From contig JAFPTC010000025.1 in assembly GCA_017400455.1 (NCBI GenBank), positions 1 through 62,887 of the forward strand: a stretch of DNA of 62,887 bases, in the 5' to 3' direction. The DNA is from Prevotella sp. Lineage in GTDB: Bacteria; Bacteroidota; Bacteroidia; Bacteroidales; Bacteroidaceae. The notes under the pieces are model-generated. The model searched no databases, was not told where the DNA came from, and worked only from the letters and a program-made list of their open reading frames with translations. How positions within the stretch are numbered: the stretch's first letter is position 1; every line of letters begins with the position of its first letter. Of this stretch, positions 3,841-60,972 are shown piece by piece. The position numbers and the translations under genes are program-made.

Positions 3841-3926
3841 GGAGGCCTTCCCAGAAAAATTTCTCACGTGAGATTTTTTCACGGGAGGCCTTACCAGAAA
3901 AATTTCTCACGTGAGATTTTTTCACG
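3841..3926. repeat. 43-bp palindromic array, locus A
   Basis: Two TCTCACGTGAGA cores (3862-3873, 3905-3916), 43 bp apart, alternate with GGAGGCCTTCCC-type palindromes. The array starts 4 bp after the remnant's last stop codon and ends 20 bp before the GH2 stop codon, between convergent genes. Confidence 0.95.
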
Positions 3927-3946
3927 AGGGATGAACGGCGCTGGAA

Positions 3947-5791
3947 TCAGCGCTTCGTGGCGTACCAGTCGCGCAGGACATAGAAGGCTTTCTTCTTCTC
4001 GCCATTGTCGGAGAAGAGGCCCTTGCGGTTGTAGTAGTCCTGAATGCCGTTGAGGACGCGGCGGGGCGAGCGGAAGTCCTTCAGAATCCAGGGCGTGGTG
4101 CCGCAGAGACCCTCGATCTTGTCGAGCATGGCCACGTTCTGCTGGTAGAGGTTCTCCTGGAACTCCTCCGTCCAGCGCTGGTTCTTGGGCCCGTGGAGGC
4201 CGTAACGGGCGCCGCCGCCAAACTCGCTGACGATGACGGGCTTGTCGTAGGGTATCTCCCACTCCATCTTGGGGGCGTCGTTGACGTCGCGATACCAGCC
4301 GATGTACTGGTTGAAGCTGACCACGTCGACGTGCTGGTGCATGTTGTCGTGGAGGCGGTTCTTATAGTTCGAGGCCCCGGTGACCTCCATGGCCATGGAG
4401 ATGAGGCGGCTCTGGTCGAGGCTGCGGGCGTGCTGGGCCAGGCGGCCAAGGAACTGGTCGCGCTGGGGCGAGTGGGGCGTCTCGTTGGCAATGCTCCAGA
4501 TGATGACGTTGGCGCGGTTCTGGTCGCGACGAATCATGTCGGTGAGCTGCTGCTGGGCGTTGTCATAGGTGTGGGCATTCTGCCAGCTGATGGTCCAGTA
4601 GCAGGGAATCTCGCTCCATACCATGATGCCCATGCGCTCGGCCTGGCGCACGGCATGCTCGTTGTGGGGATAGTGGGCCAAGCGGACGAAGTTGCAGCCC
4701 AGCTCCTGGGCCCATGAAAGGAGCTCCTGAGCATCGGCGGCGGAGTTGGCCCGCCCGCCGCCACGGGGCTTTTCTTCGTGGATGCTGATGCCACGGAGGA
4801 AGATGGGCTGACCGTTGAGGAGGATTTGCTTGCCTCGGGCCTCAATGGTGCGGAAGCCGATGCTGTCGGCCAGGAAGTCACTCACCACGGTGCCGTCGGC
4901 CGTGGTGCCGTCGAGGCGCAGCTCCACCTGGTAGCGCTTGGGGTTGTCGGGGCTCCAGAGCGACAGCTTCTTCGAGGGCACGCTGACCAGGCCCGTGGCA
5001 CGGCCCTGGGCGTCGGTGGTGAACTGGCGGGTGATCTTCAGCTCGGGAATGTTGAGGGTGACGCGCTGGCTGGCCAGGGCCTTGTCGAGCTGGGCGCTGA
5101 AGGCTATCTGGCGCTGGCGGGCCTTGGCGTCGGCAGGCTCTAAATGGAGCTTGAAGTGCTCGATGTAGGTGGCGGGAACGCGCACCAGCATGACGTCGCG
5201 GGTGATGCCGCCATAGTTCCACCAGTCGAAAATCTGGGTGGGCACGGCGTCGGCATGACGCTTGTTGTCAACCTTGACAATGACGACGTTCTCGCCCGAA
5301 AGGAGGAGGTCGGTGACGTCGAGGTTGAAGGGAGTGAATCCGCCCTCGTGATGGCCGGCCTCGCGGCCGTTGACCCACACGCGACAGTCGTAGTTCACGG
5401 CGCCGAAGTAAAGCAGCGTGCGATAGCCGCCCTCGATGGGCACCTGGGCCTGGAAGCTGGTCTTGAACCAGACGGTGCCCTCGTAGAAGAAGAGACGCTC
5501 GTCCTGCGTGTTCCAGTCTCCGGGGATGTGCATGGTGGGTGCGAGGTCGAAGTCATACTCAATGAGGTCCTCGGGCTTCTGGGGCTTGGCATTCCGGAAG
5601 AAGCCCCAGCGCGTGGGGTTCATGCGATAGTCGTAGTAGCCCTCTTCCTGCACGTCGACGATGTAGTTCCACTCACCGTTCAGCGAAGCCGACTCGCGTG
5701 AAAGCACGCTGCCGATGAGCGGGAGCTCCTTTGCCTGAACGGTTAGGGCAAAGGCCGCCAAGATGAATAACGAGAATATTTTTTGTTTCAT
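3947..5791 (-). CDS. GH2 beta-glucuronidase, secreted
   Basis: 614 residues: signal peptide (MKQKIFSLFILAAFALTVQA), jelly-roll sugar-binding domain, Ig-like domain, then a TIM barrel. The acid/base Glu is in SIANETPHSPQ and the nucleophile Glu in VIVSEFGGGARYG. Near the C-terminus, YNRKGLF carries the N-x-K motif that in beta-glucuronidases contacts the uronic acid carboxylate, so glucuronide or galacturonide cleavage is preferred over beta-galactosidase. Likely periplasmic. The -7 box TAACTTTG ends only 4 nt before the ATG, so the mRNA may be leaderless. Stands alone, and convergent with the pseudogene across array A. Confidence 0.9.
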   Translation of the reverse strand: MKQKIFSLFILAAFALTVQAKELPLIGSVLSRESASLNGEWNYIVDVQEEGYYDYRMNPTRWGFFRNAKPQKPEDLIEYDFDLAPTMHIPGDWNTQDERLFFYEGTVWFKTSFQAQVPIEGGYRTLLYFGAVNYDCRVWVNGREAGHHEGGFTPFNLDVTDLLLSGENVVIVKVDNKRHADAVPTQIFDWWNYGGITRDVMLVRVPATYIEHFKLHLEPADAKARQRQIAFSAQLDKALASQRVTLNIPELKITRQFTTDAQGRATGLVSVPSKKLSLWSPDNPKRYQVELRLDGTTADGTVVSDFLADSIGFRTIEARGKQILLNGQPIFLRGISIHEEKPRGGGRANSAADAQELLSWAQELGCNFVRLAHYPHNEHAVRQAERMGIMVWSEIPCYWTISWQNAHTYDNAQQQLTDMIRRDQNRANVIIWSIANETPHSPQRDQFLGRLAQHARSLDQSRLISMAMEVTGASNYKNRLHDNMHQHVDVVSFNQYIGWYRDVNDAPKMEWEIPYDKPVIVSEFGGGARYGLHGPKNQRWTEEFQENLYQQNVAMLDKIEGLCGTTPWILKDFRSPRRVLNGIQDYYNRKGLFSDNGEKKKAFYVLRDWYATKR

Positions 5792-5794
5792 GCA

Positions 5795-5858
5795 GCAAAG
5801 TTACGAAAAAACGAGGGCAAAACAAAAGAAATTCATTTCTTTTTTTTTGCCGAGTGCC
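5795..5858 (-). promoter_or_regulatory. Hairpin-promoter module, copy 1
   Basis: A 36-bp near-perfect inverted repeat (5816-5851, GGC..GAAAT/ATTTC..GCC) sits directly upstream of a TAACTTTG -7 box (5796-5803, minus strand). Some 60 of 64 bases are identical to 32229-32292 ahead of the M3 peptidase gene. The -33 region would fall inside the hairpin. Confidence 0.75.
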
Positions 5859-5880
5859 AAGTAAGTTCGCCACGTAGTGG

Positions 5881-6068: not shown

Positions 6069-6235
6069 AACTCAACCTGTGCGGTTGCAAATCGCATGCC
6101 CTGTTCTGCCCCCGCCATGCTTTTTCACTCAGAAGCCCCTGCCTGCTGAAACGGGAGCAAGGGATCAAGGGGAAAAGGCACGCGAGAAAAGGGGGAAAAG
6201 CACTGAGTAACAGGGAAAAAGGTACCGAGTTGTCC

Positions 6236-11353: not shown

Positions 11354-13699
11354 ATGAAACAACTATATTTTATTCTGTCATTGCTGTGCATGAGCATGGC
11401 ACTGACAGCCGCCCCACTGACCGATGCGGCCACGCTACGGGGGCGAGTGACCGACGCCGCCAGCGGCGAGCCCGTCATGGGTGCCAGCATCTACCTGCCC
11501 CAGCTGAAGCAGGGCACCGTCAGCAACGCCCAGGGCGAATATCTGCTGACCAATATTCCCGCCACGCGCACCACCGTTCAGGTGAGCTACGTGGGCCATC
11601 AGACCATTATCGAAACCATTGACCTGCGCACCACACGCGAGAAGAACTTCCAGCTGCACGAGAACAACGCCATGCTGAGCGAGGTGGTGGTGAGCGGCCT
11701 GACGGGCAGCTCGCTCATTGCCCGTTCGCCTTCGCCCGTGAGCGTGGTCACTCCTCGCGAGCTACAGGAGACGGCCTCGACCAACATCATCGACGCCGTG
11801 GCCCATCAGCCCGGCGTGAGCCAGCTCACCACGGGCAGCGGCATCTCGAAGCCCATTATCCGAGGCCTGGGCTACAACCGCATCGTCGTGGTCAACGATG
11901 GCATCCGCCAGGAGGGCCAGCAATGGGGCGACGAGCACGGCATAGAGATTGACCCCCAGGCCGTACACTCGGTCGAGATTCTGAAAGGCCCCGCCTCGCT
12001 ACTCTATGGCAGCGACGCCATGGCCGGCGTGCTGGTGATGCACGAGGACCCCATCATGCCCCAGGGCAAGATGAAGGCCACCGTGGGCGGCGAGTACCAA
12101 TCGAACCAGCACCTCTACGACTACACGGCCAACTTCGCCGGCAACCGTGGCGGCGTGGTGTGGAACTGGCGTTGGAGCGAGAAGGATGCCGACGAGATGA
12201 AGAACCGCCGCGACGGCCGCGTACCGGGCTCGCAGTTCCACGAGCAGGCGCTCACCAGCATGCTGGGCACCAATCAGGCCTGGGGCTACAGCCACCTGAA
12301 GCTCTCGGCCTACCACCTCAAGCCCGGCCTGGTCACGGGCGAACGCCACGACGGCGTGCTGGAGCCTTCGGAGGCTTTCCAGAAAATCTATCACTACAAG
12401 GTGGCACTTGACAACTCCTTCCTCATAGGCAACGGCACGCTGAAGGCCCTCGTGGGCTATCAGCAGAACCGCCGCAAGGAGTTTGGCCACCACCACGGCC
12501 ACGACGAGCACGAGCATGAAGGCGAACTGGAACACGACCACGACGGCGACGAGGACGAAGCCCACGAGCATGAAGACGAGCACGACGCCGACACGCCGGG
12601 GCTGGACTTCCGCCTGCACACGGTGAACTACACGGTGAACTACCAGTGGTCGTCAGCCAGCAACTGGAGCTACGCCGCCGGCGTGGCGGGCATGTGGCAG
12701 CACTCCGAGAACCTGGGCCACGAATATCTCATTCCCTCCTACAGCCTCATCGATGCCGGCGCCTTCGCCTCGGCCACCTGGGAGCTGGAGCGGCTGACGC
12801 TGAGCGGCGGCCTGCGCCTGGACCATCGCCATTTGCACAGCTATGAGCTGACCGACAACGGCCAGCTGTGTTTCACCGGCTTCAGCCGCAACTTCAACGG
12901 CTTCACCGGCAGCCTGGGGGCCATCTACAACCTCAGCAGCCACACCAACCTGCGCCTCAACCTGTCGAGAGGTTTCCGTGCACCAAACCTCAGCGAGCTG
13001 GGCAGCAACGGCCAGCACGAGGGCACCTTCCGCTACGAGCTGGGCAACCACCAGCTGGATCCGGAATACAGCTGGCAGGCCGACCTGGGCATCGACTTCA
13101 GCTCGGAAATCATCTCGGCCCAGCTGGCGCTCTTTGCCAACGACATCACGAACTACATCTTCCTGCAACGGCTGGGCTCCGACACCGACCGCTACCAGTA
13201 TCAGGCTGGCCATGCCCGCCTGTGGGGCGGCGAGGCCCTGCTCGACATCCACCCCGTGGAGCCGCTGCATTTCGAGAACACCTTTTCACTTGTCAATGCC
13301 CGCCAGCTGCACCAGCCGGACGACGCCCGCTACCTGCCCTTCACGCCCGCTCCCCGCTGGACCAGCGACCTGCGCTACGACATCATCCGCGACGGCCAGC
13401 AATGGCTGAACAACACCTACGTCAGCGCGGGGCTGGAGTGCTACCTGCGCCAGAGCCATGTTCACACGGCCAACCAGACCGAGACGGCCACGCCCTCCTA
13501 CACGCTGTTCAACCTTGCGGCAGGAACGGACATCCAGCATCGCGGCCGTAGGCTCTGCTCGCTGTTCATCACCGCCCAGAACCTTTTCGACCGCGCCTAC
13601 ACCTCGCACCTCAGCCGCCTGAAGTATGCCGAGGGCGGGCCCATCTGCAACATGGGGCGCAACGTCAGCGTGAAGCTGGTGGTTCCCATCGTGCTCTGA
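11354..13699 (+). CDS. TonB-dependent receptor with His-rich loop, probable zinc uptake
   Basis: 781 residues: signal peptide, carboxypeptidase-regulatory-like domain (RGRVTDAASGEPVMGASIYL), plug (VVSGLTGSS...PIIRGLGYNRIVVVNDGIRQ, VEILKGPASLLYGS) and a 22-strand barrel. Residues about 376-414 form a loop almost wholly His, Asp and Glu (EFGHHHGHDEHEHEGELEHD and on). Such a loop is the hallmark of ZnuD-type zinc receptors; nickel, cobalt or copper are alternatives. The plug and barrel fit that branch rather than SusC. Probably co-transcribed with the Cys/His protein upstream. Convergent with GH97 across array B. Confidence 0.85.
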   Translation: MKQLYFILSLLCMSMALTAAPLTDAATLRGRVTDAASGEPVMGASIYLPQLKQGTVSNAQGEYLLTNIPATRTTVQVSYVGHQTIIETIDLRTTREKNFQLHENNAMLSEVVVSGLTGSSLIARSPSPVSVVTPRELQETASTNIIDAVAHQPGVSQLTTGSGISKPIIRGLGYNRIVVVNDGIRQEGQQWGDEHGIEIDPQAVHSVEILKGPASLLYGSDAMAGVLVMHEDPIMPQGKMKATVGGEYQSNQHLYDYTANFAGNRGGVVWNWRWSEKDADEMKNRRDGRVPGSQFHEQALTSMLGTNQAWGYSHLKLSAYHLKPGLVTGERHDGVLEPSEAFQKIYHYKVALDNSFLIGNGTLKALVGYQQNRRKEFGHHHGHDEHEHEGELEHDHDGDEDEAHEHEDEHDADTPGLDFRLHTVNYTVNYQWSSASNWSYAAGVAGMWQHSENLGHEYLIPSYSLIDAGAFASATWELERLTLSGGLRLDHRHLHSYELTDNGQLCFTGFSRNFNGFTGSLGAIYNLSSHTNLRLNLSRGFRAPNLSELGSNGQHEGTFRYELGNHQLDPEYSWQADLGIDFSSEIISAQLALFANDITNYIFLQRLGSDTDRYQYQAGHARLWGGEALLDIHPVEPLHFENTFSLVNARQLHQPDDARYLPFTPAPRWTSDLRYDIIRDGQQWLNNTYVSAGLECYLRQSHVHTANQTETATPSYTLFNLAAGTDIQHRGRRLCSLFITAQNLFDRAYTSHLSRLKYAEGGPICNMGRNVSVKLVVPIVL

Positions 13700-13710: not shown

Positions 13711-13803
13711 TTTCATGGGGAGGCTTCCCATGAAAAAATCTCACGTGAGAAATTTTCACGGGAAGGCCTCCCAGAAAAATTTCTCACGTGAGATTTTTTC
13801 ACG
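13711..13803. repeat. 43-bp palindromic array, locus B
   Basis: Cores at 13739-13750 and 13782-13793, 43 bp apart, opened by a variant palindrome CATGGGGAGGCTTCCCATG. It lies between convergent stop codons, 11 bp after the receptor and 18 bp before GH97. Confidence 0.95.
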
Positions 13804-13821: not shown

Positions 13822-15867
13822 CTATCGCTGCAGGATAAGCCCGCCGTTGGGCTGTATTTCCACTTTTGCCTTGCCCTTCTTGTCAACCTTCAAGGTGCTG
13901 AGCGTGGGCTGGCCCGTCTTGCGGTCGTCAACGTAGTATTTCAGCTGCGTGCCGGCAGGGAAGATGCCAACGAGGTCGAGCGTGAGCTTCAGCGGCTCTT
14001 TGAGTGCGCTGAGGCCTGCCACGTACCAGTCGTCGCCGTGGCGGCGGGCCAGGACGACGTAGCGGCCGGGATAGCCGTCGATGAAGCGGGTCTCGTCCCA
14101 AGTGGTGGGCAGCGCCTTCAGCCATTCCACCTCAAAGGGCGGCAGCTCGTTCTCCGTCAGGTTGTTGGGCTGCATGGCCACACACTGCACGGCAGCCTGC
14201 ATGGTGATGCCGCTGGCCATCTCGAAGATGTCGGTGGTCTTGCGGGTGTGGCGGCTCTTGTTGTCCTTCGACAGGTATTTGTTCATGATGATGCCGCCCC
14301 AGTCCATCGAGGCCGACGCGTTGCGGCAGAAGGGGTGCATGGTCAGGTCGAAGGGCTGGCGCTTGGCAGCATCCTCGCCGAAGAACACGTTCTCCGAGGC
14401 CAGTACGGCTTCTGACGACACGTAGTTGGGATACATCCGTTCCCAGCCGCGTGGCAGGGTGCAGCCGTGGAAGATGCAGAGCAGGCCGTAGCGGTTGGCG
14501 TCGTAGAGAATGTCCTCGTAGAGCTTCATCGTCTCCTGCTTGTCGCCGCCGAAGAAATCGACCTTGATGCCCTTCACGCCTATCGACTTGAGCCATGCCA
14601 TCTCGCGGTCGCGGGCCATGGCGGTGTTCATGCACTGGCGCGGCGTCTGCGGGGCGTCGTTCTCAAAGCCGTTGCTGTTGTACCACAGCATCAGGCTGAC
14701 GCCCTTCTGCTGAGCATATTTCGAGAGCTGGGCCATGCGCTCGCGACCAATGTTGTTGTCCCACCAGTTGTCCACGAGGCACAGCTCGTAGCCCATGCTC
14801 GATGCCAAGTCGATGAACTTCACCTGGTCGTCGTAGTTGATGCTGTTGTCCTGCCAGATGAGCCAGCTCCAGGTGTAGCGGCCGTAGGGATTGACGCTGG
14901 CCAGCTGGGGGTTGAGCTGGTAGAGGGGCTCCACCACGTCGTACTGCACGGTGGTTTCAACAATGGGCTTCAGCGTCTCGCCCACGGTGATGGTGCGCCA
15001 GGGTGTCTCGCCGGGCAGGGCAATGCCGGGGGCCACCGAGCCCACGCCGTTGTTCTCGCCCTCCATGGGGTAAGCGATCTGATAGGAAGCCCCCCCTACG
15101 GCCCCCAAGGGGGCTTCTATAGATTTGCAGTCGGAGAGGCGGCTACCGCAATAGGCACTGCTGACGCCGGTTTCAGAGATGAGCACCCATCCGCCGTGCT
15201 CGGCATTTGCAGTTCCCCTTCCTTGGGAGGGGGTTGGGGGAAGGCCGAACAGACAGGGAAAGGTGAATCCATGGCCATACTGCGAGCGCTGGGTCATGGG
15301 GGCGTCGGCCTGATAGACCTCCTCGTAGCTGGGCTTCGTGCGCTCCCAGCCAATCATCGGGTCGCTCTGCGGCGTGAGGAAGGTGGTGGTGCCTTCGGGC
15401 AGGCTGAAGCTGGTTTGCTCTGAGAGGATGACGGCACTCTTGGGATTGTCGCCTCGCTGGCGGGGAATGAGGTAGCGGAAGGCCACGTCGTGGTCGCCCA
15501 CACTGAACTGCATGCTCATCTTCTGCTTCTGCCCGTTCTCGAAGTCCACGGTCAGCAGGGTGGCCACATAGTGCACATGGCTCTGCTTGGCCTGGCGCAT
15601 CTCGTAGCATTTATCCACCTGTTCGGCCTTCGTACCCGTAATCTTCAGGCCTTGGGTGAAGTCGCCGAAGTTGGCCTTGAAGCCCAGTGCCGACGGCAGC
15701 ATCACCTGCCGGCCGTCGAAGGTCACGGCATAGGTGGGCCGTCCGCCCTCGTCGGTCACGGCCACTACCAGTTTTCCACTTGGCGAGGCCACCTGAGCCT
15801 CGCGCCCCAGCATTGATGCGGGCAGAGAAGTGAGCAGTGCCAGCATCAGCATCACAGTTTTTTTCAT
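13822..15867 (-). CDS. GH97 glycosidase, retaining type
   Basis: 681 residues: signal peptide, N-terminal beta-sandwich (ASPSGKLVVAVTDEGGRPTY), then a TIM barrel and a C-terminal beta domain. KGIKVDFFGGDKQ supplies the Asp nucleophile and YVSSEAVLASE the downstream Glu seen in retaining GH97 enzymes (alpha-galactosidase-like), not the inverting SusB layout. Likely periplasmic. Two short GC-rich palindromic elements are inserted in frame near the join between domains (15087-15116 and 15211-15244), adding residues such as APLGAVGGA and PPTPSQGRG. Single gene with its own -7 box. Confidence 0.88.
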   Translation of the reverse strand: MKKTVMLMLALLTSLPASMLGREAQVASPSGKLVVAVTDEGGRPTYAVTFDGRQVMLPSALGFKANFGDFTQGLKITGTKAEQVDKCYEMRQAKQSHVHYVATLLTVDFENGQKQKMSMQFSVGDHDVAFRYLIPRQRGDNPKSAVILSEQTSFSLPEGTTTFLTPQSDPMIGWERTKPSYEEVYQADAPMTQRSQYGHGFTFPCLFGLPPTPSQGRGTANAEHGGWVLISETGVSSAYCGSRLSDCKSIEAPLGAVGGASYQIAYPMEGENNGVGSVAPGIALPGETPWRTITVGETLKPIVETTVQYDVVEPLYQLNPQLASVNPYGRYTWSWLIWQDNSINYDDQVKFIDLASSMGYELCLVDNWWDNNIGRERMAQLSKYAQQKGVSLMLWYNSNGFENDAPQTPRQCMNTAMARDREMAWLKSIGVKGIKVDFFGGDKQETMKLYEDILYDANRYGLLCIFHGCTLPRGWERMYPNYVSSEAVLASENVFFGEDAAKRQPFDLTMHPFCRNASASMDWGGIIMNKYLSKDNKSRHTRKTTDIFEMASGITMQAAVQCVAMQPNNLTENELPPFEVEWLKALPTTWDETRFIDGYPGRYVVLARRHGDDWYVAGLSALKEPLKLTLDLVGIFPAGTQLKYYVDDRKTGQPTLSTLKVDKKGKAKVEIQPNGGLILQR
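15087..15116. repeat. In-frame GC-rich palindrome inside GH97
   Basis: Arms AAGCCCCC/GGGGGCTT enclose a C-rich centre (TACGGCCCCCAA). The element keeps the frame and encodes EAPLGAVGGAS. It resembles GC-rich mobile micro-repeats common between Bacteroidetes genes. Confidence 0.65.
15211..15244. repeat. In-frame G/C-rich repeat inside GH97
   Basis: CCCCTTCCTTGGGAGGGGG followed by TTGGGGGAA. Nearly the same element occurs at 56429-56460 inside the GH3 gene. Here it encodes PPTPSQGRG. Confidence 0.7.
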
Positions 15868-17886: not shown

Positions 17887-19602
17887 ATGAACGCGAAAAA
17901 AACATTTGCAGGCCTGGCTTTGCTTTGCGCCACCACCGGCATGCAAGCGGGCGACGGCGCCGTGCAGCTGCGCCGCAACCAGGTGGGCTACGGCCCCCAG
18001 CAGGAGAAAATCATTGTTGTTGAGGGCACCAACCCCAAGGGAAAGCTGCGGCTGACGGCGCCCGATGGACGGGTGAGCAAGCCGAAGACGGTGCGCAAGG
18101 CCGTTTCGCCCTGGTCGGGCAAGACGCGCTACGTGGTGGACCTGGGCCAGCTCACGGAAGTGGGCCAATATCAGCTCAGCCTGGGCAAGGAAAAATGCAC
18201 AGTGAGCGTGGCCGAGCATCCGCTGCGCGAGGTGTCGAAGGCTTCGCTGCGCCTGTTCTACCTCATCCGCTCGGGCGTGCCCATCAGCATGGGCGGCGAC
18301 TACAACCGACCCCTGGGCCATGCCGACACGAAGGTGCTGGTTCACCCCTCGGCCGCCTCGCCCCTGCGCCCCGCCGGAACGGTCATCAGCTCGCCTCTGG
18401 GCTGGTATGACGCGGGCGACTATAATAAATATGTGGTCAACTCGGCCTTCAGCATCGGCCTGATGCTGGCCGCCTACGAGCAGCAGCCCCAATACTTTGC
18501 CGCCCTGAACACCAACATACCCGAGAGCCAGAACCAGACGCCCGACCTGCTCGACGAGATGATGTTCAACCTTGCATGGCTCTTCACCATGCAGGATCCC
18601 TACGACGGCGGCGTCTACCACAAGCTGACCACGCCCAACTTCGAGGGCTTCATCATGCCCACAGCGTGCAAGCAGCCGCGCTATGTGGTGGCCAAGAGCG
18701 TCACCGCCACGCTCGACTTTGCAGCCGTGATGGCCGATGCCGCCCGCCTCTTCGAGCCGTTCCAGCAGGACTATCCGGGTTTCTGCGCCCAGGCTGCTGC
18801 CGTGGCCGAAAGGGCCTACCAGTGGGCCAAGGCCAACCCCACGGCCTTCTACCGCCAGGAGCGGCTGAAGGACCCAGCCGTGAGCACCGGAACGTATGGC
18901 GACATGAACGCCCGCGACGAGTTCTTCTGGGCCGCATCAGCCCTCTACCGCCTGACGGGCAAGCAGACCTATCTTGACGATGCCCTCCAGCACCAGCCCA
19001 AGGCCTTCACCGCCCCCACCTGGGGCAACGTGGCCTCATTAGGAGCCTACGAGTGGCTGGCCGCCAAGGACGGCGCCGCCCTGTTCCAGCCCATGAAGGA
19101 GCAGCTCATGGCCTATTGCGACGATCTGGTGAAGAAGGCTGAAGGCTCCTGCTTCCAGTCGCCCTTCGGCAACAACGCCCGCGACTTTGGTTGGGGCTGC
19201 CTGGCCGAAAACTGCTGCTGTCCAGCCATGGCCCTGCTCTATGCCGACCAGCTCCTGGGCACGCAGAAGTATCGTCCCTACGCGCTGCAGAACGCCGACT
19301 ACCTGTTGGGCCGCAACGCCACGGGCTATTGCTTCGTGACGGGCTTCGGCGACCAAAGCCCCATGCAGCCTCACCACCGCCCGTCGGCTGCCGACGGCAT
19401 CGATGCTCCCTTCCCGGGCATGCTCGTGGGCGGGCCGAACCCTGGCCAGCAGGACAAGAACGACGGCCAGTTCAGCTATCCCTCGAACCAGCCAGACGAG
19501 TCGTACATCGACCACAGTGCCAGCTACGCCTCGAACGAGATTGCCATCAACTGGAACGCCTCGCTCGTAGCGCTGTTCTGCTGGCTCGACGCCACGGAAT
19601 GA
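17887..19602 (+). CDS. GH9 endoglucanase with N-terminal Ig-like domain
   Basis: 571 residues: signal peptide (MNAKKTFAGLALLCATTGMQ), cellulase N-terminal Ig-like domain (VQLRRNQVGYGPQQEKIIVV), then the (alpha/alpha)6 catalytic domain. The catalytic base Asp pair is in GWYDAGDYNKYVVNS and the acid Glu in YASNEIAINWNASLV. Family activity is cleavage of beta-1,4-glucan, including mixed-linkage glucan and xyloglucan backbones. Likely periplasmic or surface; no dockerin or CBM seen. Third gene of the 16004 operon, followed by a strong terminator. Confidence 0.92.
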   Translation: MNAKKTFAGLALLCATTGMQAGDGAVQLRRNQVGYGPQQEKIIVVEGTNPKGKLRLTAPDGRVSKPKTVRKAVSPWSGKTRYVVDLGQLTEVGQYQLSLGKEKCTVSVAEHPLREVSKASLRLFYLIRSGVPISMGGDYNRPLGHADTKVLVHPSAASPLRPAGTVISSPLGWYDAGDYNKYVVNSAFSIGLMLAAYEQQPQYFAALNTNIPESQNQTPDLLDEMMFNLAWLFTMQDPYDGGVYHKLTTPNFEGFIMPTACKQPRYVVAKSVTATLDFAAVMADAARLFEPFQQDYPGFCAQAAAVAERAYQWAKANPTAFYRQERLKDPAVSTGTYGDMNARDEFFWAASALYRLTGKQTYLDDALQHQPKAFTAPTWGNVASLGAYEWLAAKDGAALFQPMKEQLMAYCDDLVKKAEGSCFQSPFGNNARDFGWGCLAENCCCPAMALLYADQLLGTQKYRPYALQNADYLLGRNATGYCFVTGFGDQSPMQPHHRPSAADGIDAPFPGMLVGGPNPGQQDKNDGQFSYPSNQPDESYIDHSASYASNEIAINWNASLVALFCWLDATE

Positions 19603-19894: not shown

Positions 19895-20016
19895 TTTTTT
19901 TCTGGGAGGCCTCCGCAGAAAAAAATCTCACGTGAGATTTTTTCACGGGAAGGCCTCCCAGAAAATTTTCTCACGTGAGATTTTTTCACGGGAAGCCTCC
20001 GCAGAAAATTTTCACG
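19895..20016. repeat. 43-bp palindromic array, locus C
   Basis: Cores at 19926-19937 and 19969-19980, 43 bp apart, with GC palindromes before, between and after. It lies between the convergent GH9 and sensor-kinase genes. Confidence 0.95.
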
Positions 20017-29841: not shown

Positions 29842-29863
29842 CAAATTATTTTGGAAAATGTCG

Positions 29864-29871
29864 TACCTTTG
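29864..29871 (+). promoter_or_regulatory. -7 promoter box, EamA gene
   Basis: TACCTTTG ends only 9 bp before the ATG at 29881. With usual spacing, transcription would start within a few bases of the start codon. Confidence 0.6.
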
Positions 29872-29880
29872 CACCCCGAA

Positions 29881-30831
29881 ATGAACTATCTGGGCGAACT
29901 AATATCCCTTGGCGTGGCCTTTTCGTGGACCATAGCCGCGCTGGCCAGCGAAGTGGGCAGCAAGCGACTGGGCGTTTTTGTGATGAACGTGTGGCGCATG
30001 GGCGTCACGCTACTGCTATCGGCCGTGCTGCTGTGGTTGACGATGGGTGCCCCCTACCCCGTGGGCGCCGGCAACGCCACGTGGGGCTGGCTGCTGGCTT
30101 CGGGCGTGGTGGGCTATTTCTTTGGCGACTGGTGCCTGTTCAACAGCTACCTGACCATTGGCTCGCGCATGGGCCAGCTGTTCATGACGCTCGCACCCAT
30201 GTTCACGGCCCTCTCGGCCTGGGTGATGATTGGGCAGACGCTGGCGTGGACGTCGCTGCTGGCCATGACGGTCACGCTGCTGGGCATCGCCATCTCCGTG
30301 CTGGGCCAAGACAAGCAGCACCACGTCACGCTGGACCTGCCGCTGAAGGGCATTCTCTACGGCATCGGCGCCGGACTGGGCCAGGGCGTGGGACTGGTGC
30401 TCAGCAAGATTGGGCTGGACCACTACACCCAGGACCTGCTCGCGTCGGAGGCCTATTCCTCGCTGGCCACCCAGCAGGAGGCCGTTCTTCCCTTTGCCTC
30501 TAACACCATTCGCTGCGTGGCGGGCCTGACCTGCTTCGCCGCATGGCTCATAGCCAGCGGAAACGCCGGACGCATGGTCACCAGCCTGCACGAGCGCAAG
30601 GGCCTGGCAGCCATGCTCATAGCCGTTTTCTCGGGGCCCTTCATCGGTGTGGGCTTCTCGCTCATGGCCGTGCAGTACACGGCCGCCGGCATAGCCAGCA
30701 CCATCATGGCCATGACGCCCATCATCATCCTGCTGCCGTCGAAATGGCTCTTCCATCAGCCCATCACCACGCGCAACGTTTTGGGTGCCGTCATCTCGGT
30801 CGTGGGCGTGTCGCTGTTCTTCCTTTTATAG
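29881..30831 (+). CDS. EamA/DMT-family inner-membrane transporter
   Basis: 316 residues with ten hydrophobic helices in two EamA repeats (first: ELISLGVAFSWTIAALASEV; second opens LKGILYGIGAGLGQGVGLVL). The start at 29881 is set by the first helix; an earlier ATG at 29851 lies upstream of the promoter box. Family members export amino acids or other small metabolites; the substrate is unknown. Single gene, convergent with the PIG-L gene across array D. Confidence 0.85.
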   Translation: MNYLGELISLGVAFSWTIAALASEVGSKRLGVFVMNVWRMGVTLLLSAVLLWLTMGAPYPVGAGNATWGWLLASGVVGYFFGDWCLFNSYLTIGSRMGQLFMTLAPMFTALSAWVMIGQTLAWTSLLAMTVTLLGIAISVLGQDKQHHVTLDLPLKGILYGIGAGLGQGVGLVLSKIGLDHYTQDLLASEAYSSLATQQEAVLPFASNTIRCVAGLTCFAAWLIASGNAGRMVTSLHERKGLAAMLIAVFSGPFIGVGFSLMAVQYTAAGIASTIMAMTPIIILLPSKWLFHQPITTRNVLGAVISVVGVSLFFLL

Positions 30832-30834
30832 GCC

Positions 30835-30975
30835 TTTTTCACAGGGGGAGCCTCCCCGTGAAAATTTCTCACGTGAGATTTTTTTCTGGGAGGCCTTCCC
30901 GTAAAAATTTCTCACGTGAGATTTTTTTCTGGGAAGCCTCCACGTGAAATTTTCTCACGTGAGAAATTTTCACGG
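30835..30975. repeat. 43-bp palindromic array, locus D (three units)
   Basis: Cores at 30867-30878, 30910-30921 and 30953-30964, exactly 43 bp apart, with GC palindromes in between. It starts 3 bp after the EamA stop codon and ends 15 bp before the PIG-L stop codon. Confidence 0.95.
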
Positions 30976-30990
30976 GGCGCCGCCCGCCCG

Positions 30991-34488: not shown

Positions 34489-34505
34489 GACGGCAGCAGG
34501 ATATA

Positions 34506-34585
34506 AAAAAATCTCACGTGAGAAATTTTTCTGGGAGGCCTTCCCGTGAAAAAATCTCACGTGAGAAATTTTTATGGGAAGCCTT
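34506..34585. repeat. 43-bp palindromic array, locus E
   Basis: Cores at 34512-34523 and 34555-34566, 43 bp apart, and a partial GC palindrome at the right end. Between convergent genes, about 105 bp from each stop codon. Confidence 0.95.
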
Positions 34586-34692
34586 GTCCTTTTCACTTAG
34601 AATGTTGGCGGTATTCTGCTACAAAGAACAAGAGCAAAAGCTCAAATCTATAAAATAAGTACGAACAGGAACAATATTAACTTGTTACGTTA

Positions 34693-45862: not shown

Positions 45863-45994
45863 AAAAAAAATCTCACGTGAGATTTTTTCACGGGAGGCCT
45901 TCCCAGAAAAATTTCTCACGTGAGATTTTTTCACGGGAGGCCTTCCCAGAAAATTTTCTCACGTGAGTTTTTTTCACGAGAGGCCTCCGCAGAA
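45863..45994. repeat. 43-bp palindromic array, locus F (three units)
   Basis: Cores at 45871-45882, 45914-45925 and 45957-45968 (the last decayed to TCTCACGTGAGT), 43 bp apart. It ends 1 bp before the GH97 stop codon. The other side faces the susC promoter region, so this locus is tandem rather than convergent. Confidence 0.95.
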
Positions 45995-45995: not shown

Positions 45996-47825
45996 TTACC
46001 CCCTTGGCTTGACAACCAGCAGGAAGCCTCCCCTGGGCTGGCAGCTGAGGGCTGAGGGCAGCTGGGCAGGACGAGTGATGAGCCAGGGGCTGGCGGCATC
46101 GCCACTGTCGGCAAACAGGGTGACGGACTGACGGACACGGCCGGTGGCGAGGAAGCTTAGGTCGAGAGGAATAGTCAGGGGCTGATCGGTGCCATTGATG
46201 CCGGCCACATACCAGGTGTCACCGCTGCGACGGGCCACCACGGCATGGTGGGCGGGATGGCCGCTCACGAGGCGGGTGTCATCCCACGCTGCGGGCAACT
46301 GTCCGAAGAACCGCCTCACCTCCTCGGGCTGGGCCAACAGGCTCTCGGGACGGTCGGCCAGATGCTGCAGACCACTCTCGAAGAGCACGGTCAGGGCCAG
46401 CTCATGGGCGTGGGTTGTGATGTGGGGGTGCTGCGAGTCGCTGAAGGCGCAGGGGGTATAGTCCATGGAGCCTACCACGTTGCGGGTGAAGGGCAGCGTG
46501 GCGTTGTGAGCGGCGGCCTTGGCAGTGAAGGTGGGCACGTTGTTGTACCACTCGGCGCCATAGACGCCCTCGGTGGAGAGGAGGTTCGGCCATGTGCGCT
46601 GCCAGCCACGCGGAATGGTGGCTCCGTGGAAGTTGACTAACAGGTGGTGGCGGGCGGCACTCTCCAGGAGGTCGAGGCAGTAGTCCATGTTGCGCTGGTC
46701 GTCGCCGCTGAAGAAGTCGATCTTCACGCCAGCCACGCCCAGCTGCTCGCACCAGGCAAACTCGCGCTCGCGGTCTTCGGCCTTGTTCAAGCGGTACTTC
46801 GGCGTGGGGGCACCGTCCACCCAGCCCACGCTGCTGTTATACCAGATCATGGGTTTCACACCCTTGGAGCGGGCGTAGGCAATGGCGTCCTCGATGGTCT
46901 TGCCGTTCTTCATCGTGTCCCACTCGGCATCGATGAGCACATAAGGCAGACGCAGGCTGACGGCCAGGTCGACATAGCGCTTGATGATGTCGAAGTCGTT
47001 GGAGCCGTGGTTGTAAGCCCAGTAGACCCACGACACCACGCCAGGCTGAATCCAACTGGTATCAGCCACTTGGCAAGGCTGGCTGACGTCGGTGACCAAG
47101 GTCGACTGCACCACGTCGGCCAGTCGGCCCACGATGACCAAACGCCAGGGCGAGTGGCTGGCAAGGGGGCCGTCGAGCGTCTTGTCGGGCACCACACGGA
47201 AGCGCTCGCCCTCGTTGTAGAGGCACGAGGCGCTCTGTCCCCGCTGGATGTCGGCCTCGGTGATGAGGGCGTACACGCTGTCGGCGGGCTGAAGCAAGGC
47301 AGGATAGCCCCATCGGCAGTTCCACCCCTCGGCCGACTTGAAGGTGCCGCTGTAGGAACGCACGGGCGGCACCTTGTAGGTGGTGGACAGGGGGAAGAAG
47401 CCTTCGTAGCTGTCGGTCCACTGCTGCATCCAGCGGCGCGTTCCTTCGGGAATGACGTAGGTGGTGGGCTCCTGCTGGGGCTGCCAGCTGGGCGACTGCT
47501 CGTAGCGGAAGGCCAGGCCGTCGTTATAGAGGCGCACCACCAGCCCGCTGTCGAGCCTGTACTCGTTGGCCTCGTTGGTGCAGTGGCGCCGCTTGCCCGA
47601 GTGCATGGTGTAGTCCTCGGCAAGGTGGCGGCTAAACGTCATGCTCATGGGCGCCGCACGATGGAAATCGAGGTCGATGACCGGCTGGTGCTCATAGTAG
47701 AGCGTCAGTCCCCCACCCTTCTGCCTGAGTGAGAGTTTGCCATTGGGCGACGATGCTTTTTCCTGGGCCGAAAGGCCAGTAGAGATGGCCAAGAGCAGGA
47801 ATACGGCAAGAGAAATGTTTTTCAT
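45996..47825 (-). CDS. GH97 glycosidase of the xylan-type locus
   Basis: 609 residues. Start at 47825 (MKNISLAVFLLLAISTGLSA) gives a signal peptide; the longer open frame up to 48209 is GH8 sequence read in another frame. N-terminal beta-sandwich (SSPNGKLSLRQKGGGLTLYY), TIM barrel with GVKIDFFSGDDQRNM (Asp nucleophile) and LLSTEGVYGAEWY (Glu), so retaining type with alpha-galactosidase-like chemistry expected. It follows GH8 by 7 bp. On xylan it could remove alpha-linked side sugars. Confidence 0.88.
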   Translation of the reverse strand: MKNISLAVFLLLAISTGLSAQEKASSPNGKLSLRQKGGGLTLYYEHQPVIDLDFHRAAPMSMTFSRHLAEDYTMHSGKRRHCTNEANEYRLDSGLVVRLYNDGLAFRYEQSPSWQPQQEPTTYVIPEGTRRWMQQWTDSYEGFFPLSTTYKVPPVRSYSGTFKSAEGWNCRWGYPALLQPADSVYALITEADIQRGQSASCLYNEGERFRVVPDKTLDGPLASHSPWRLVIVGRLADVVQSTLVTDVSQPCQVADTSWIQPGVVSWVYWAYNHGSNDFDIIKRYVDLAVSLRLPYVLIDAEWDTMKNGKTIEDAIAYARSKGVKPMIWYNSSVGWVDGAPTPKYRLNKAEDREREFAWCEQLGVAGVKIDFFSGDDQRNMDYCLDLLESAARHHLLVNFHGATIPRGWQRTWPNLLSTEGVYGAEWYNNVPTFTAKAAAHNATLPFTRNVVGSMDYTPCAFSDSQHPHITTHAHELALTVLFESGLQHLADRPESLLAQPEEVRRFFGQLPAAWDDTRLVSGHPAHHAVVARRSGDTWYVAGINGTDQPLTIPLDLSFLATGRVRQSVTLFADSGDAASPWLITRPAQLPSALSCQPRGGFLLVVKPRG

Positions 47826-47832
47826 AGTAAGC

Positions 47833-49176
47833 TTAATTGTGTTCGGGGAAGATGATGCGATAGTTTCCACTGAGGTGCATGAAGGCGAAGAGGCGCAGCA
47901 GTCCGTCGTAGTAGGCGTCGAAATAGCCGTCGTCGAAGGGCACGTGGCGGGCGTTCCAGAGGGCATCGACGAACTCCTTGGCCTTGTCGTGCGAGCACAT
48001 GACCGAGGCGGCGGCCACCGTGGCCACCAGCCCGATGCTGTGGCGCAGCTTGCGGAAGCCTCCGGCGCCCAGAATCTCGCCTCCCTCGGGCAGCGTGCCG
48101 TCGACGCGGTACTGGTCCATGAACGTGTCGACGCCCTGCGAGTAGAAGAAGTTCTGTATGCGCTCGCCATACTGCCGCTGCCACTCGCCGTCGGCGCAGC
48201 TCCACTCATAGTCCAGCGCGATGTTCATGGGCACGCGCCAGGAGTCGTAGCGGAAGCAGTTGCTGCCGTTGGGGCGATTGCCCCAGCCGGGACGCAGCGA
48301 GCCGTCGTAGTTGCTCTGGTCGGGGTTCAGTCCTGTCACGGGGTGCGTGGCCTTGTGCAGATACTCGCGGCTGGCCTGGGCACACTGCTGCCAGAAGTCC
48401 GAGCGGCCGTCGTCGCCCCACCGCGCCCATACCTCATAGAAGGCGGGTATGTGATAGGAAGGATCGGTGAACTGGTTGCCCCAGCCGTCGGGGGTGAAGG
48501 TGATGAGCTTCGTCTCGGGATCAATGAGGAACATCCGCTCCTTCCTGGGCTGCTGATCCTGCTGAGCGTTCTGCTGACCGCCGCCAAAGGCGCCCCAGGG
48601 ACCGGGCCGGCGCTGGGCCTCATACTCCTTGGGCTGGATGCAGTTGAGAATATTCTGGGCCTCAGCCTTATAGTCAATTCCGGTGTCGTTGCCCCAGCGA
48701 TTGCTGGCAAAGAGCAGCGAGGTAATGAAATAGAGCTCACCGTCGGAGGCGGCACCGTCGCTGTTACGTGTGCCGTCAGTCTTGCAGCTCCAGGCGAAAT
48801 AGCCCTTGCGCAGGCCGTCCTGGTGCTGCATGTACTTCTTGGTCCATCGCCACAGGCGGTCGAAGATGTCCTTCTCGCCCATCTGCACGGCCACCATCAG
48901 TCCGTAGGACATGCCTTCAGTGCGGGCGTCGTGGTTCTTGATGTCAGAGACGTAGCCCATCGAGTCGCCCACCTCGAAATACACCTTGTTGGGCCCGTGG
49001 AACACGTCGTTGAACACTTCCTTCAGCTTCGCGTCGACGTCGGCCTGCTTGTAGCCCATCTCCACGAACACATTGCGGTACTTCTTTGTCTCAAACGCTC
49101 CCTTCTTCCAAGGGGTGAGCGCCCATGTGCCGGCTACCATGAGCAGCATCAGCACGGTCATCATACCTTTCCTCAT
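47833..49176 (-). CDS. GH8 xylanase-type enzyme (reducing-end exo-oligoxylanase-like)
   Basis: 447 residues: signal peptide (MRKGMMTVLMLLMVAGTWAL) and an (alpha/alpha)6 barrel. The acid Glu is in NHDARTEGMSYGLMVAVQMG and the family Asp in GAASDGELYFITSLL. RYDSWRVPMNIALDYEWSC and YFDAYYDGLLRLFAFMHLSG match Rex-type GH8 enzymes that release xylose from the reducing end of xylo-oligosaccharides. A Gln-rich loop (GGGQQNAQQDQQPRKERM) is unusual. First gene of a two-gene operon with GH97; -7 box at 49202-49209. Confidence 0.88.
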   Translation of the reverse strand: MRKGMMTVLMLLMVAGTWALTPWKKGAFETKKYRNVFVEMGYKQADVDAKLKEVFNDVFHGPNKVYFEVGDSMGYVSDIKNHDARTEGMSYGLMVAVQMGEKDIFDRLWRWTKKYMQHQDGLRKGYFAWSCKTDGTRNSDGAASDGELYFITSLLFASNRWGNDTGIDYKAEAQNILNCIQPKEYEAQRRPGPWGAFGGGQQNAQQDQQPRKERMFLIDPETKLITFTPDGWGNQFTDPSYHIPAFYEVWARWGDDGRSDFWQQCAQASREYLHKATHPVTGLNPDQSNYDGSLRPGWGNRPNGSNCFRYDSWRVPMNIALDYEWSCADGEWQRQYGERIQNFFYSQGVDTFMDQYRVDGTLPEGGEILGAGGFRKLRHSIGLVATVAAASVMCSHDKAKEFVDALWNARHVPFDDGYFDAYYDGLLRLFAFMHLSGNYRIIFPEHN

Positions 49177-49357: not shown

Positions 49358-49615
49358 TTAGCCGATGAGGACAAAGCGGTTGGCAGACGGGTCGTAGCCG
49401 ACGGGATGGGCAAAGGAGGTCGTTTTGCCGTCGCTGACGGCAGAGACATCGATTCCCCGCTGACGGAACTCATCCATCAGGGCGGCATCGTGAAAGGCAC
49501 GCATCGACGACCATGCGCGACTGCCTACCTGGGAATTGAACGTGTTGACTAACTCGGTGACTGGCATGTCTGCGAAACGCAGAGCATACTTGATGTAATA
49601 AACGTGCTGTTTCAT
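49358..49615 (-). CDS. Small unknown protein with structured leader
   Basis: 85 residues, no signal peptide or membrane segment (MKQHVYYIKYALRFADMPVT, FNSQVGSRAWSSMRAF, GKTTSFAHPVGYDPSANRFV). It looks like a compact cytosolic alpha/beta protein; no family recognised. It has its own promoter box (49765-49772) and an unusually long, hairpin-rich leader of about 140 nt, and lies between the two enzyme operons on the same strand. Probably a real gene from its start context and codon use. Confidence 0.65.
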   Translation of the reverse strand: MKQHVYYIKYALRFADMPVTELVNTFNSQVGSRAWSSMRAFHDAALMDEFRQRGIDVSAVSDGKTTSFAHPVGYDPSANRFVLIG

Positions 49616-49639
49616 AACTTTTTTGTTTTGAAGTGAATA

Positions 49640-49759
49640 CTGGCTTCCGCATCGTACTGACCACCGTGGCTAAGTTATTCAGTCGACGTTCCTTTCGGTC
49701 ATCAACCTAAAGCTCGGTTGGCGAGTCCGCCCTTGCGGGCGACTACTCTTGATGCTTTC
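49640..49759 (-). ncRNA. Candidate structured 5' leader RNA
   Basis: Read on the minus strand, the leader starts about 5 nt after TACCTTTG (49765-49772). It holds AGUC-GCCC-GCAA-GGGC-G-GACU (a GCAA-tetraloop hairpin), CAACC..GGUUG, and a small CC-GAAA-GG hairpin, then a further weaker stem before the ATG at 49615. It matches no riboswitch class I can name. A cis-regulatory RNA or a processed small RNA are both possible. Confidence 0.4.
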
Positions 49760-49866
49760 GGTTGCAAAGGTATGAAAAAAGACGGAAACGGCCAAAGGAT
49801 TTGCCGGGAAAAAGACGAAAAAAACGAATACGACCAGGCCTGAAAAAACTGGGGCACGCAAGACAG

Positions 49867-49934
49867 ATTTCTGGGAGGCCTTCCCGTGAAAAAATCTCAC
49901 GTGAGATTTTTTCACGGGAAGGCCTCCCAGAAAT
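49867..49934. repeat. Palindromic array, locus G: perfect 68-bp palindrome
   Basis: Single core TCTCACGTGAGA (49895-49906) flanked on both sides by GGGAGGCCTTCCC-type elements. All 34 bases of one arm pair with the other, with no loop. It ends 18 bp before the stop codon of the type-B esterase. Confidence 0.97.
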
Positions 49935-49952: not shown

Positions 49953-51443
49953 TTACGGAAGGATGGGCTCGCCCATCTGCGATGCCTCGGCGTCGTTGGC
50001 ATCGAGCTTGAAAAGCATGAACTGAGGAGCCTCCTCGGTGCAGGGTGTCCAGCCCAGGCCCGCGCCCTCAGCGTTGCCATTGGGATCGCCATACTTCGCA
50101 AAGTTGGTCCAGGCGGTGAGCATCTTCTCAGACAGGTCCCAGTCGCCCTGGGTCCAAGGACGCCAGCAGTGCTTCAGGCTCTTGAACACAAACCAAAGAT
50201 CGGACGAGTGGAAGGCGCCCTTCAGGCGGTCGGTAATCTCGGGATGATGGCCGTCATCGGGCAGCGGACGGGCAAACTCGTAGGCCCAGGCCTTGTTGCC
50301 CTGCTGAGCACGCACCTTGCAGAACTCGGCAATGCCGGGTGCCATGGCCCCCATGTCGTTCAGGGTGTAGCCAATCATGTAGGGCACGTCGGCAATGGTG
50401 CCCTCGCGGGTGGCTGCGTCGAAGGACTTCAACGACACGTAGCCGTCGACTATGGGGCGCTGCATCAGGAAGACGTCGTTATGGGTCACCATGTTGTAGA
50501 TTTGCGGCAGGGTGTAGAGTACCTCGGTTGAGGCCTGGCGCAGCTTCTGCAAATCGGTCAGGCCGGCCCAGTCCATCACCTTCTTGGTCTCGGCCTCGCT
50601 CTCAGCCAGCGAGGGGTTATAGGTGAAGAAGCGGTTGACAGGCGTGGCGGGCTTGGCTTCCTCGCCCTCCTTGGCCGGCACGTTGATGCCGCCGCCGCTC
50701 ATGATGATGGCCTTGTGGAAGAGGCCTCGGGTGAGCGGACTCTCGCAGAGCGTGCGCACGCTGCCTGCTCCGGCACTCTGGCCGAAGATGGTGACATTAG
50801 ACGGGTCGCCGCCAAACTGGGCAATGTTCTGCCTGATCCACTTCAGGGCCTGAATCTGGTCGAGAATGCCGTAGTTGCCACTGACGTGGTTCTCGCTCTC
50901 GGCCGACAGCTCGGGATAGGTCATGAAGCCGAAGATGCCCAGACGATAGTTGATGCTGACCAGCACCACATCCTTCGAGGCCCACTCCTGACCGTCGAAC
51001 TCGGGCTCGGAGCCCCAGCCCTCGCGATAGCCACCACCGTGGATCCAAAGGGCCACGGGCAGTTTCTTATCGGGCTGGCCGGCGGCCTTGGTCCACACGT
51101 TCAGGTAGAGGCAGTCCTCGCTGTAGGGAGCCTCGTCGCCATAGCCCCACTCAGAGGCATAGAAGCCCGGATAGTGAACGGCCTGATAGCCGGGATGGCC
51201 AAACTTGTCGCAGAGGCGCACGCTGTCCCAGGCCACCACGGGCTGGGGTGCCTTCCAACGCAACTGACCAATAGGAGGCGCGGCGTAGGGGATGCCACGA
51301 TAGACACTGACGCCAGGGTTCTCGGCCCAGACGCCCTGAATCTGACCGCCCTCGACGGTGAGCACAGGCACTTCCGCCTTCTGCTCGCCAGACGTGCAAC
51401 TCAGCACGGCCAGCAACGGCAACATGAACAATAGCTTTCTCAT
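49953..51443 (-). CDS. Type-B carboxylesterase, secreted
   Basis: 496 residues. N-terminus MRKLLFMLPLLAVLSCTSG carries a lipobox-like Cys, so probably a lipoprotein. Alpha/beta hydrolase of the carboxylesterase type B family: YRGIPYAAPPIGQLRWKAP, EDCLYLNVW, oxyanion WIHGGGY, nucleophile Ser in IFGQSAGAGSVRTL, and catalytic His in GAFHSSDLWFVF. Such enzymes in xylan loci remove acyl or feruloyl-type esters, but specificity cannot be read. Last gene of the six-gene enzyme operon, 8 bp after CE6. Confidence 0.88.
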   Translation of the reverse strand: MRKLLFMLPLLAVLSCTSGEQKAEVPVLTVEGGQIQGVWAENPGVSVYRGIPYAAPPIGQLRWKAPQPVVAWDSVRLCDKFGHPGYQAVHYPGFYASEWGYGDEAPYSEDCLYLNVWTKAAGQPDKKLPVALWIHGGGYREGWGSEPEFDGQEWASKDVVLVSINYRLGIFGFMTYPELSAESENHVSGNYGILDQIQALKWIRQNIAQFGGDPSNVTIFGQSAGAGSVRTLCESPLTRGLFHKAIIMSGGGINVPAKEGEEAKPATPVNRFFTYNPSLAESEAETKKVMDWAGLTDLQKLRQASTEVLYTLPQIYNMVTHNDVFLMQRPIVDGYVSLKSFDAATREGTIADVPYMIGYTLNDMGAMAPGIAEFCKVRAQQGNKAWAYEFARPLPDDGHHPEITDRLKGAFHSSDLWFVFKSLKHCWRPWTQGDWDLSEKMLTAWTNFAKYGDPNGNAEGAGLGWTPCTEEAPQFMLFKLDANDAEASQMGEPILP

Positions 51444-58818: not shown

Positions 58819-58824
58819 ATATTC

Positions 58825-60723: not shown

Positions 60724-60766
60724 AACAACTACTGACTATTTTGTTAATAATAAAAATTGGCTGCTG

Positions 60767-60774
60767 CAAAGTTA
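60767..60774 (-). promoter_or_regulatory. -7 promoter box, six-gene xylan enzyme operon
   Basis: TAACTTTG on the minus strand, with a leader of about 38 nt before the ATG at 60723. Confidence 0.65.
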
Positions 60775-60899
60775 GCGTAAAAAAGCGCAACAGTATTTAA
60801 CGTATGTTTCAGATTGTTTCAAAAATGTATCAGCTGTTCTAATTGTCTGCAATTAAGAAAAACATAGCGCATTTAAGCACAGTTTCACGCGGGGCCGAC

Positions 60900-60972
60900 T
60901 TTTTTTTCTGGGAGGCCTTCCCGTGAAAAAATCTCACGTGAGATTTTTTCACGCGGAGCCTCCCCAGAAAAA
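60900..60972. repeat. Palindromic array, locus H
   Basis: One core at 60932-60943 with GC palindromes on both sides. The same 68-bp layout as locus G but with several mismatches in the right arm. It lies downstream of tRNA-Gln and upstream of the CBM operon promoter. Confidence 0.95.

Follow-up and report, generated by a model that had tools for sequence, protein, structure and literature searches.

Palindromic arrays in a Prevotella contig

What are the short palindromic arrays that recur beside genes along a 62,887-nt stretch of Prevotella sp. DNA (GCA_017400455.1, JAFPTC010000025.1, positions 1-62,887; hereafter the window)? An earlier note on this DNA had described 16 palindromic cores at eight loci, set 43 bp apart within arrays and accompanied by a second palindrome, and both descriptions held. 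The core, TCTCACGTGAGA, has 16 matches in the window (up to 2 mismatches), 15 of them exact, at eight loci with 2, 2, 2, 3, 2, 3, 1 and 1 cores, against a mean of 2.61 and a maximum of 10 matches in the shuffled window (n = 100). The variant core (45957-45968) has a terminal T, and the step from core to core within an array is 43 bp every time. The GC-rich palindrome GGGAGGCCTTCCC, or variants of it, alternates with the cores; it too has 16 matches in the window at up to 2 mismatches (shuffled window: mean 2.43, maximum 7), 13 of which lie inside arrays and three outside (8254, 24355 and 37563). We tentatively regard the arrays as a young, lineage-confined, extragenic repeat family resembling repetitive extragenic palindromic (REP) sequences and bacterial interspersed mosaic elements (BIME), in which the core would be the site of a putative dimeric protein, and for which transcription termination or mRNA stabilisation would be a possible, secondary effect; on this composite reading we are slightly more doubtful than confident.

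Genome-wide copies and anatomy of the unit

A search of the whole genome and of the genus, as the earlier note had proposed, returned 323 exact copies of the core in the own genome, against 0 for the reversed string, and a clear relative of the repeat only in the genome G248, described below. Our detailed sample of the own genome, whose assembly is 71% complete, comprised 775 kb (31% of 2.54 Mb) in 44 contigs or parts of contigs. It holds 119 exact cores, or 132 when near ones are included, grouped in 61 arrays with one core (n = 11), two (n = 33), three (n = 14), four (n = 2) or five cores (n = 1). The core-to-core step is 43 bp in 68 of 71 cases, 42 bp in two and 44 bp in one. Each of the 20 sampled pieces (contigs or parts) 10 kb or longer has an array, so that a contaminant origin is unlikely.

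The repeating unit is 43 bp long and directional, consisting of the core TCTCACGTGAGA, an A/T tract, a GC-rich imperfect palindrome and a further A/T tract. The palindrome has one CAC-type and one TCT-type arm in 66 of 68 spacers, and its direction is constant in all 16 arrays having two or more 43-bp spacers. Spacers resemble each other more within arrays (0.890) than between them (0.839), a difference reached by 2 of 2000 permutations. Both the within-array similarity and the constant direction would be explained by local head-to-tail duplication, by which the arrays may grow. Array ends are diffuse, and an outer hairpin scoring at least 6 was found in 13 of 122 cases (shuffled, 1 of 122), so that a clean hairpin is the minority situation.

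The conservation of the core was assessed by stepping 43 bp away from each exact core wherever the 31 intervening bases were spacer-like, which gave 159 positions that are not independent, pairs of exact cores being counted from either side. Exact cores stood at 110 of these, and cores with one, two and three mismatches at 10, 2 and 1, while the remaining 36, with five or more mismatches, represent outer array ends. Over the 123 core-like positions (0-3 mismatches), core divergence amounts to 17 mismatches in 1476 bases (1.2%), and the GC part of the spacer departs from its consensus by a mean of 10.9%, or by 5.1% once the three most variable positions are left out. The hexamer CACGTG is mildly avoided in the sample (181 occurrences, 273 expected). 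A separate observation from the same 44 contigs or parts is the strong avoidance of CTCGAG (11 occurrences, 221 expected), CCGCGG, CGCGCG and AGTACT, which suggests a restriction-modification system.

Distribution among relatives

Within 397 other genomes of the genus, drawn from a larger group, the sequence CTCACGTGAG occurs at most 8 times per genome, as compared with 350 copies in the own genome. For WWWWTCTCNNNNGAGAWWWW the counts are 335 (own genome) and 98 (G248), with no more than 8 in any of the remaining 396, in one of which the reversed control reached 12. Of the genomes searched, only the own one carries the family, with a partial relative in one other. When over-represented perfect palindromes were sought in 8 relatives other than G248, at 100 kb apiece, no comparable family emerged; a hairpin-arm scan detected other, rarer hairpins.

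The proteins of G248 have a median identity of 81% to those of the own genome (37 hits of at least 60%). In a 375-kb sample of this genome, an over-represented 12-mer, TCTCGTACGAGA, was recovered without reference to any half-site pattern, occurring 6 times where 0.01 was expected. Eight sites fit the A/T-flanked pattern, with the centre GTAC in 6, GTAT in 1 and ACGT in 1, and their A/T flanks and arms are partly like those of the own-genome repeat. Further modules (GGTAACGA and others) follow each other in 8 steps of 20-23 bp, duplicates 0-1 bp apart being excluded. The 12 clusters of G248 are placed in divergent (n = 4), convergent (n = 4) and tandem (n = 3) gaps, with one at an end.

Elsewhere in the genus, copies of the core were found in 26 of 199 other genomes, at 1-3 per genome (31 sites); of the 20 sites inspected by eye, 18 look like chance, showing no extended dyad, and the other two, L155 and L156 (G128), show either such a dyad or a second core. 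Long palindromes sharing the 12-bp core occur outside the own genome at L155 (G128), L171 (G367) and L182 (G248). A/T-flanked core-like sites were detected in 10 other genomes, including G248 and G128 (control, 0); those beyond G248 were judged to be chance or ordinary hairpins and were set aside. When the core pattern was searched across genome contigs, matching arms were seen by eye, among the 9 matches listed, only in Prevotella L022, the other 8 stretches sharing no more than the core and some of the A/T tract. A link to phages was sought with one 22-base pattern, which had 0 matches in viral contigs. Other palindromes were noted on the way: three TCTC-N4-GAGA-like motifs with A/T flanks, spaced 22 and 44 bp, at G324:C5:74280-74365; CCCTCC...GGAGGG-type hairpins dispersed in the own-genome sample, G034 and G248; and palindromes with AAAGGT/ACCTTT arms, at 4-5 per 100 kb, in G144 and G022 (L096-L100, L071-L075).

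Placement relative to genes

Genes were called with a home-made caller whose start codons are poorly chosen and whose stops are more reliable, and a gap class could be assigned to 56 of the 61 sampled arrays. With tRNAs included, 31 arrays lie in tandem, 17 in convergent and 8 in divergent gaps, 4 stand beside contig ends and 1 overlaps an open reading frame (ORF), a weak one. Among gaps of at least 60 bp (tRNAs excluded), an array occupies 16 of 43 where the genes converge, 30 of 203 where they are in tandem and 9 of 61 where they diverge. The core nearest to a called start codon is 84 bp away from it. The 30 tandem arrays sit on average at 17% of the stop-to-start distance and are nearer to the stop than under uniform placement, even when the start-proximal 100 bp are excluded (mean 33%; P = 0.0007); 11 of them have an edge within 20 bp of a stop. 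Divergent arrays had no tRNA beside them, the only tRNA found being that at element H of the window. The direction of arrays relative to that of genes was judged by eye only.

Placement at gene 3' ends is a strong bias with exceptions genome-wide. The earlier note's statement that arrays are always downstream of a gene end is accurate for the eight window loci (through tRNA-Gln for element H) and fails for the 8 divergent arrays of the genome; the scoring against stop codons that it had recommended returned the same two-sided answer, a pronounced 3'-end bias and the divergent exceptions.

Termination, stabilisation or a protein site

That gene-end placement raises the question of whether the arrays are bidirectional intrinsic terminators amplified genome-wide, in which a core hairpin between A- and T-tracts would have replaced ordinary terminators. 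The 17 convergent arrays and the preferential occupation of convergent gaps speak for it, as does the frequency of a hairpin followed by a T-run at -6 kcal/mol or lower: such a signal marks 58% of 53 array-bearing gene ends (32% at the stricter -9 kcal/mol), a share that falls to 13% once the array is masked and compares with 24% of 222 array-less ends and 10% of 275 upstream-of-start stretches. Furthermore, among 15 homologues of array B's GH97 neighbour, at least 3 (L029, L031 and L032) end, by eye, in plain hairpin-plus-T terminators, and a T-run in the proper direction is usually at hand: of 30 tandem arrays, 26 have TT on the downstream side of at least one core and 21 on that of the last core. 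The terminator-like signals at array-bearing ends and the ordinary terminators of the GH97 homologues make some termination activity plausible. As the principal role we nevertheless consider termination rather unlikely. The arrays show no polarity with transcription: TT also occurs on the upstream side of at least one core in 29 of 30 tandem arrays and upstream of the first core in 24 of 30, and the 32 mixed cores of tandem arrays have AA on the downstream side in 21 cases and TT in 11. Left and right arms were complementary at the two core-flanking positions in 36% and 33% of the 132 cores, where 53% would be expected, and 1000 of 1000 shuffles equalled or exceeded the observed complementarity. 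Since 82 of these cores are mixed, with AA to one side and TT to the opposite side (TT on both sides in 38, AA on both in 3, other in 9), the A/T part of the stem is not fully paired, and the terminator-like hairpin in either direction put forward earlier is too simple; a perfect 24-mer has a predicted fold of -7.9 kcal/mol, but one mixed, mismatched form only -4.4 kcal/mol. The GC-rich palindrome, for its part, has a T-run before it and an A-run after it on both strands, and the divergent placement of 8 of 56 arrays, and of 4 of 11 classifiable G248 clusters, speaks against a terminator. Bidirectional termination, one of the roles proposed in the earlier note, is accordingly weakened as the main role, although the arrays do contribute terminator-like signals at many gene ends.

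Should the arrays instead stabilise transcript 3' ends, as REP sequences do in E. coli mRNAs, strong hairpins would block 3' exonucleases. The predicted folds are very stable (element G, -56.7 kcal/mol with z = -14.25; array A, -33.4; array F on the minus strand, -61.3), and the 11 tandem arrays edging a stop are suitably placed; yet the near-invariant core, the self-complementary centre kept in both genomes and the divergent placements are left unexplained, and we find stabilisation quite improbable as the primary explanation. Spread as classical REP elements or REP doublets forming hairpins (REPIN) by a Y1 transposase of the REP-associated tyrosine transposase (RAYT) type would agree with a high-copy, extragenic, palindromic and clustered repeat, and with the Y1 matches seen in 6 of 12 relatives (E <= 0.001; 5 above the cut-off). 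The search for a RAYT gene suggested by the earlier note was nonetheless negative in the own assembly (0 matches), from which, at 71% completeness, the gene could be missing; the tags GTAG and CGTC occur in 0 of 71 inner spacers (in the 122 outer 35-mers, GTAG in 5 and CGTC in 8); and a RAYT-like ORF of G248 (L266, 1905-2327, minus strand; 141 aa, NHLH motif) has, by eye, another repeat around it, with no TCTC-N4-GAGA site in 12 kb. This makes a RAYT origin, to our mind, highly doubtful. By eye, the repeat around that ORF, which contains GGATTGCAAATCCG, differs from the TCTC-N4-GAGA repeat. Finally, the core shares TCACGTGA with parS, the consensus of which we take to be the 16-bp TGTTTCACGTGAAACA, from which the core differs, and the cores might on this account be binding sites of ParB or a Noc-like protein. 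The genome has one ParB_N match and an exact parS-like TGTTTCACGTGAAACA of its own (G000:C112:9498), this exact copy and one two-mismatch copy lying outside the cores, and the common GTAC centre of G248 breaks the CACGTG match. A ParB role is barely credible.

Of the readings weighed, the best supported, though one we hold with some reserve, is that of a protein site, which rests, from sequence, on the conserved core and its self-complementary centres. Between the own genome and G248 the self-complementary centre differs as a whole while the half-sites are kept, as would be expected under a dimeric protein; a free hairpin loop would need no such centre. A putative dimeric DNA-binding protein would read the TCTC...GAGA half-sites, and with roughly four helical turns from one core to the next, the cores would lie along a single face of the DNA. 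Arrays would persist where promoters are undisturbed, giving rise to the bias towards gene 3' ends, and, once transcribed, would fold strongly and might halt RNA polymerase or shield 3' ends, effects that would probably be secondary. The putative protein may either copy the element, which would then be selfish, or organise DNA at the borders of transcription units as a host function; a copying or cleaving protein is slightly more likely than a host DNA organiser because the family looks young. The binding site for an architectural protein envisaged in the earlier note thus survives in its first half, a protein site fitting the sequences best, whereas the architectural role is unsupported and its ParB-parS form disfavoured. 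A more far-reaching version, which we deem improbable, is that an undescribed dimeric protein of some Prevotella reads TCTC-N4-GAGA between A/T tracts, that its specificity for the centre changed from one species to another (ACGT to GTAC) together with the sites, and that the phased sites serve chromosome-wide boundary or supercoil control; if true, hundreds of sites on one DNA face would mark transcription-unit borders.

Several points weigh against the protein-site reading. The core's conservation could equally stem from recent copying that needs the core, the arrays were located by their cores, much of the spacer divergence with which that of the core is compared comes from three toggling positions, and outer T-runs are common on both sides. 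The TCTC/GAGA conservation in G248 is partly by construction, the half-sites being fixed in the search pattern. In addition, the sampled G248 repeats lie 68-575 bp from stops, and the further modules, with 25 overlapping matches in the 375-kb sample of G248, have none in the own-genome sample of 775 kb; because of these differences, common descent of the two families is unproven. When 55 arrays were compared with 9 partial relative genomes, two syntenic cases (G248 and G034) had both array neighbours adjacent and the array missing, which counts in favour of the composite reading, but there were no clean empty sites, only these 2 cases being syntenic and the relatives too divergent. The placement figures come from 56 of 61 arrays and a home-made gene caller, and the genus genomes are a subset of a larger group. 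As the site of the putative binder is sharply defined and two natural versions of it exist, the question of whether REP-like repeats are parasites, terminators or protein sites becomes testable.

The eight loci of the window

Array A (3840..3926; cores 3862-3873 and 3905-3916) precedes the stop of a glycoside hydrolase (GH) family 2 gene, 3947-5791 (-). The gene end on its 5' side is a 23-residue remnant with its stop at 3836; this frame (3765-3836, +) ends in MLRVQWRFNYNPKKK-stop directly before the array, resembles the end of an outer-membrane barrel, and, by its likeness to the end of the ORF at 10-2703, looks like a leftover 3' piece. Array B (13713..13803; cores 13739-13750 and 13782-13793) lies between the stops of a TonB-dependent receptor gene, 11354-13699 (+), and a GH97 gene, 13822-15867 (-). 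Array C (19896..20013; cores 19926-19937 and 19969-19980), with three GC-rich palindromes, occupies the convergent gap between a GH9 gene, 17887-19602 (+), and a histidine kinase gene, 20172-22142 (-), and the three-core array D (30844..30980; cores at 30867, 30910 and 30953) that between the stops of an EamA gene, 29851-30831 (+), and a PIG-L gene, 30991-32127 (-). Array E (34502..34590; cores 34512-34523 and 34555-34566) is downstream of a Peptidase_M3 gene, 32305-34401 (+), and array F (45864..45994; cores at 45871, 45914 and 45957, the last ending in T) adjoins the stop of a second GH97 gene, 45996-48209 (-).

The two remaining loci have a single core each. Element G (49870..49931; core 49895-49906), with two GC-rich palindromes, is a perfect 62-base palindrome downstream of the ORF at 49953-51443 (-); a SAM-I/IV riboswitch (49613-49760, -) lies between it and the gene on its left. 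Element H (60908..60971; core 60932-60943), flanked on each side by a GC-rich palindrome, is downstream of tRNA-Gln (61100..61171, -), the 3' side of which faces it. In an Rfam search of the window at the gathering score, only tRNA and SAM-I-IV were matched and no Rfam family corresponded to the arrays.

Comparison with known systems

In the portion of the literature covered, the core string was matched in a single, unrelated paper, and the family was not encountered among publications on Prevotella palindromic, intergenic or miniature inverted repeats, which is no proof of its being unpublished; Prevotella is unmentioned in the covered part of the RepRanger paper (PMC12306157), as are Bacteroides, Porphyromonas and Prevotella in that of PMC2267715. 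The palindromic candidate structured RNAs, some of them from Bacteroidetes, as far as described in the covered part of PMC8040213, share with our repeat their palindromic nature and, in those cases, the host phylum, and most are predicted terminators; they lie near particular genes, whereas the Prevotella family is spread over one genome. Compared likewise by description, the BOX element of Streptococcus pneumoniae (PMC3049150, in part) is also a small interspersed repeat with tandem modules in variable number (boxB), but the Prevotella arrays have a palindromic core in every unit and undefined boxA- or boxC-like ends. Closer in taxonomy is BrickBuilt of Porphyromonas gingivalis, a miniature inverted-repeat transposable element which, from the covered part of PMC4596501, has 19 copies, a leader, a tail and terminal inverted repeats resembling the IS5-family ISPg1. 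Both are intergenic tandem repeats of Bacteroidales, and the 23-nt BrickBuilt units are near the 20-23 bp steps of G248; leader, tail and terminal inverted repeats were unrecognised in the Prevotella arrays, no systematic search for them having been made.

The nearest likeness is to REP, BIME and REPIN sequences, which, in the covered sources, are extragenic, high-copy, palindromic and clustered in few lineages, as is the Prevotella repeat; its 323 copies exceed the 100 by which extragenic palindromes are counted as REPs. The REP/BIME affinity drawn in the earlier note stands as a resemblance and not as membership of the GTAG- and CGTC-tagged superfamilies described in the covered parts of PMC3733652 and PMC2817692. 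In distinction from REPs and REPINs, the Prevotella unit has a 12-bp near-invariant core, with no Y1 transposase found in the 71%-complete own assembly; Bacteroidetes subclasses of this enzyme are described (PMC6006769, in part). BIME units alternate in orientation at regular spacing, whereas the Prevotella units, equally regular at 43 bp, run head-to-tail in one direction. The Prevotella palindromes, numerous and apparently young as a family, lack the usual REP tag but share one further habit with REPs: heterodimers are preferred in many REP families (PMC3733652, PMC2817692, as covered), and mixed arm types are preferred in the Prevotella spacers.

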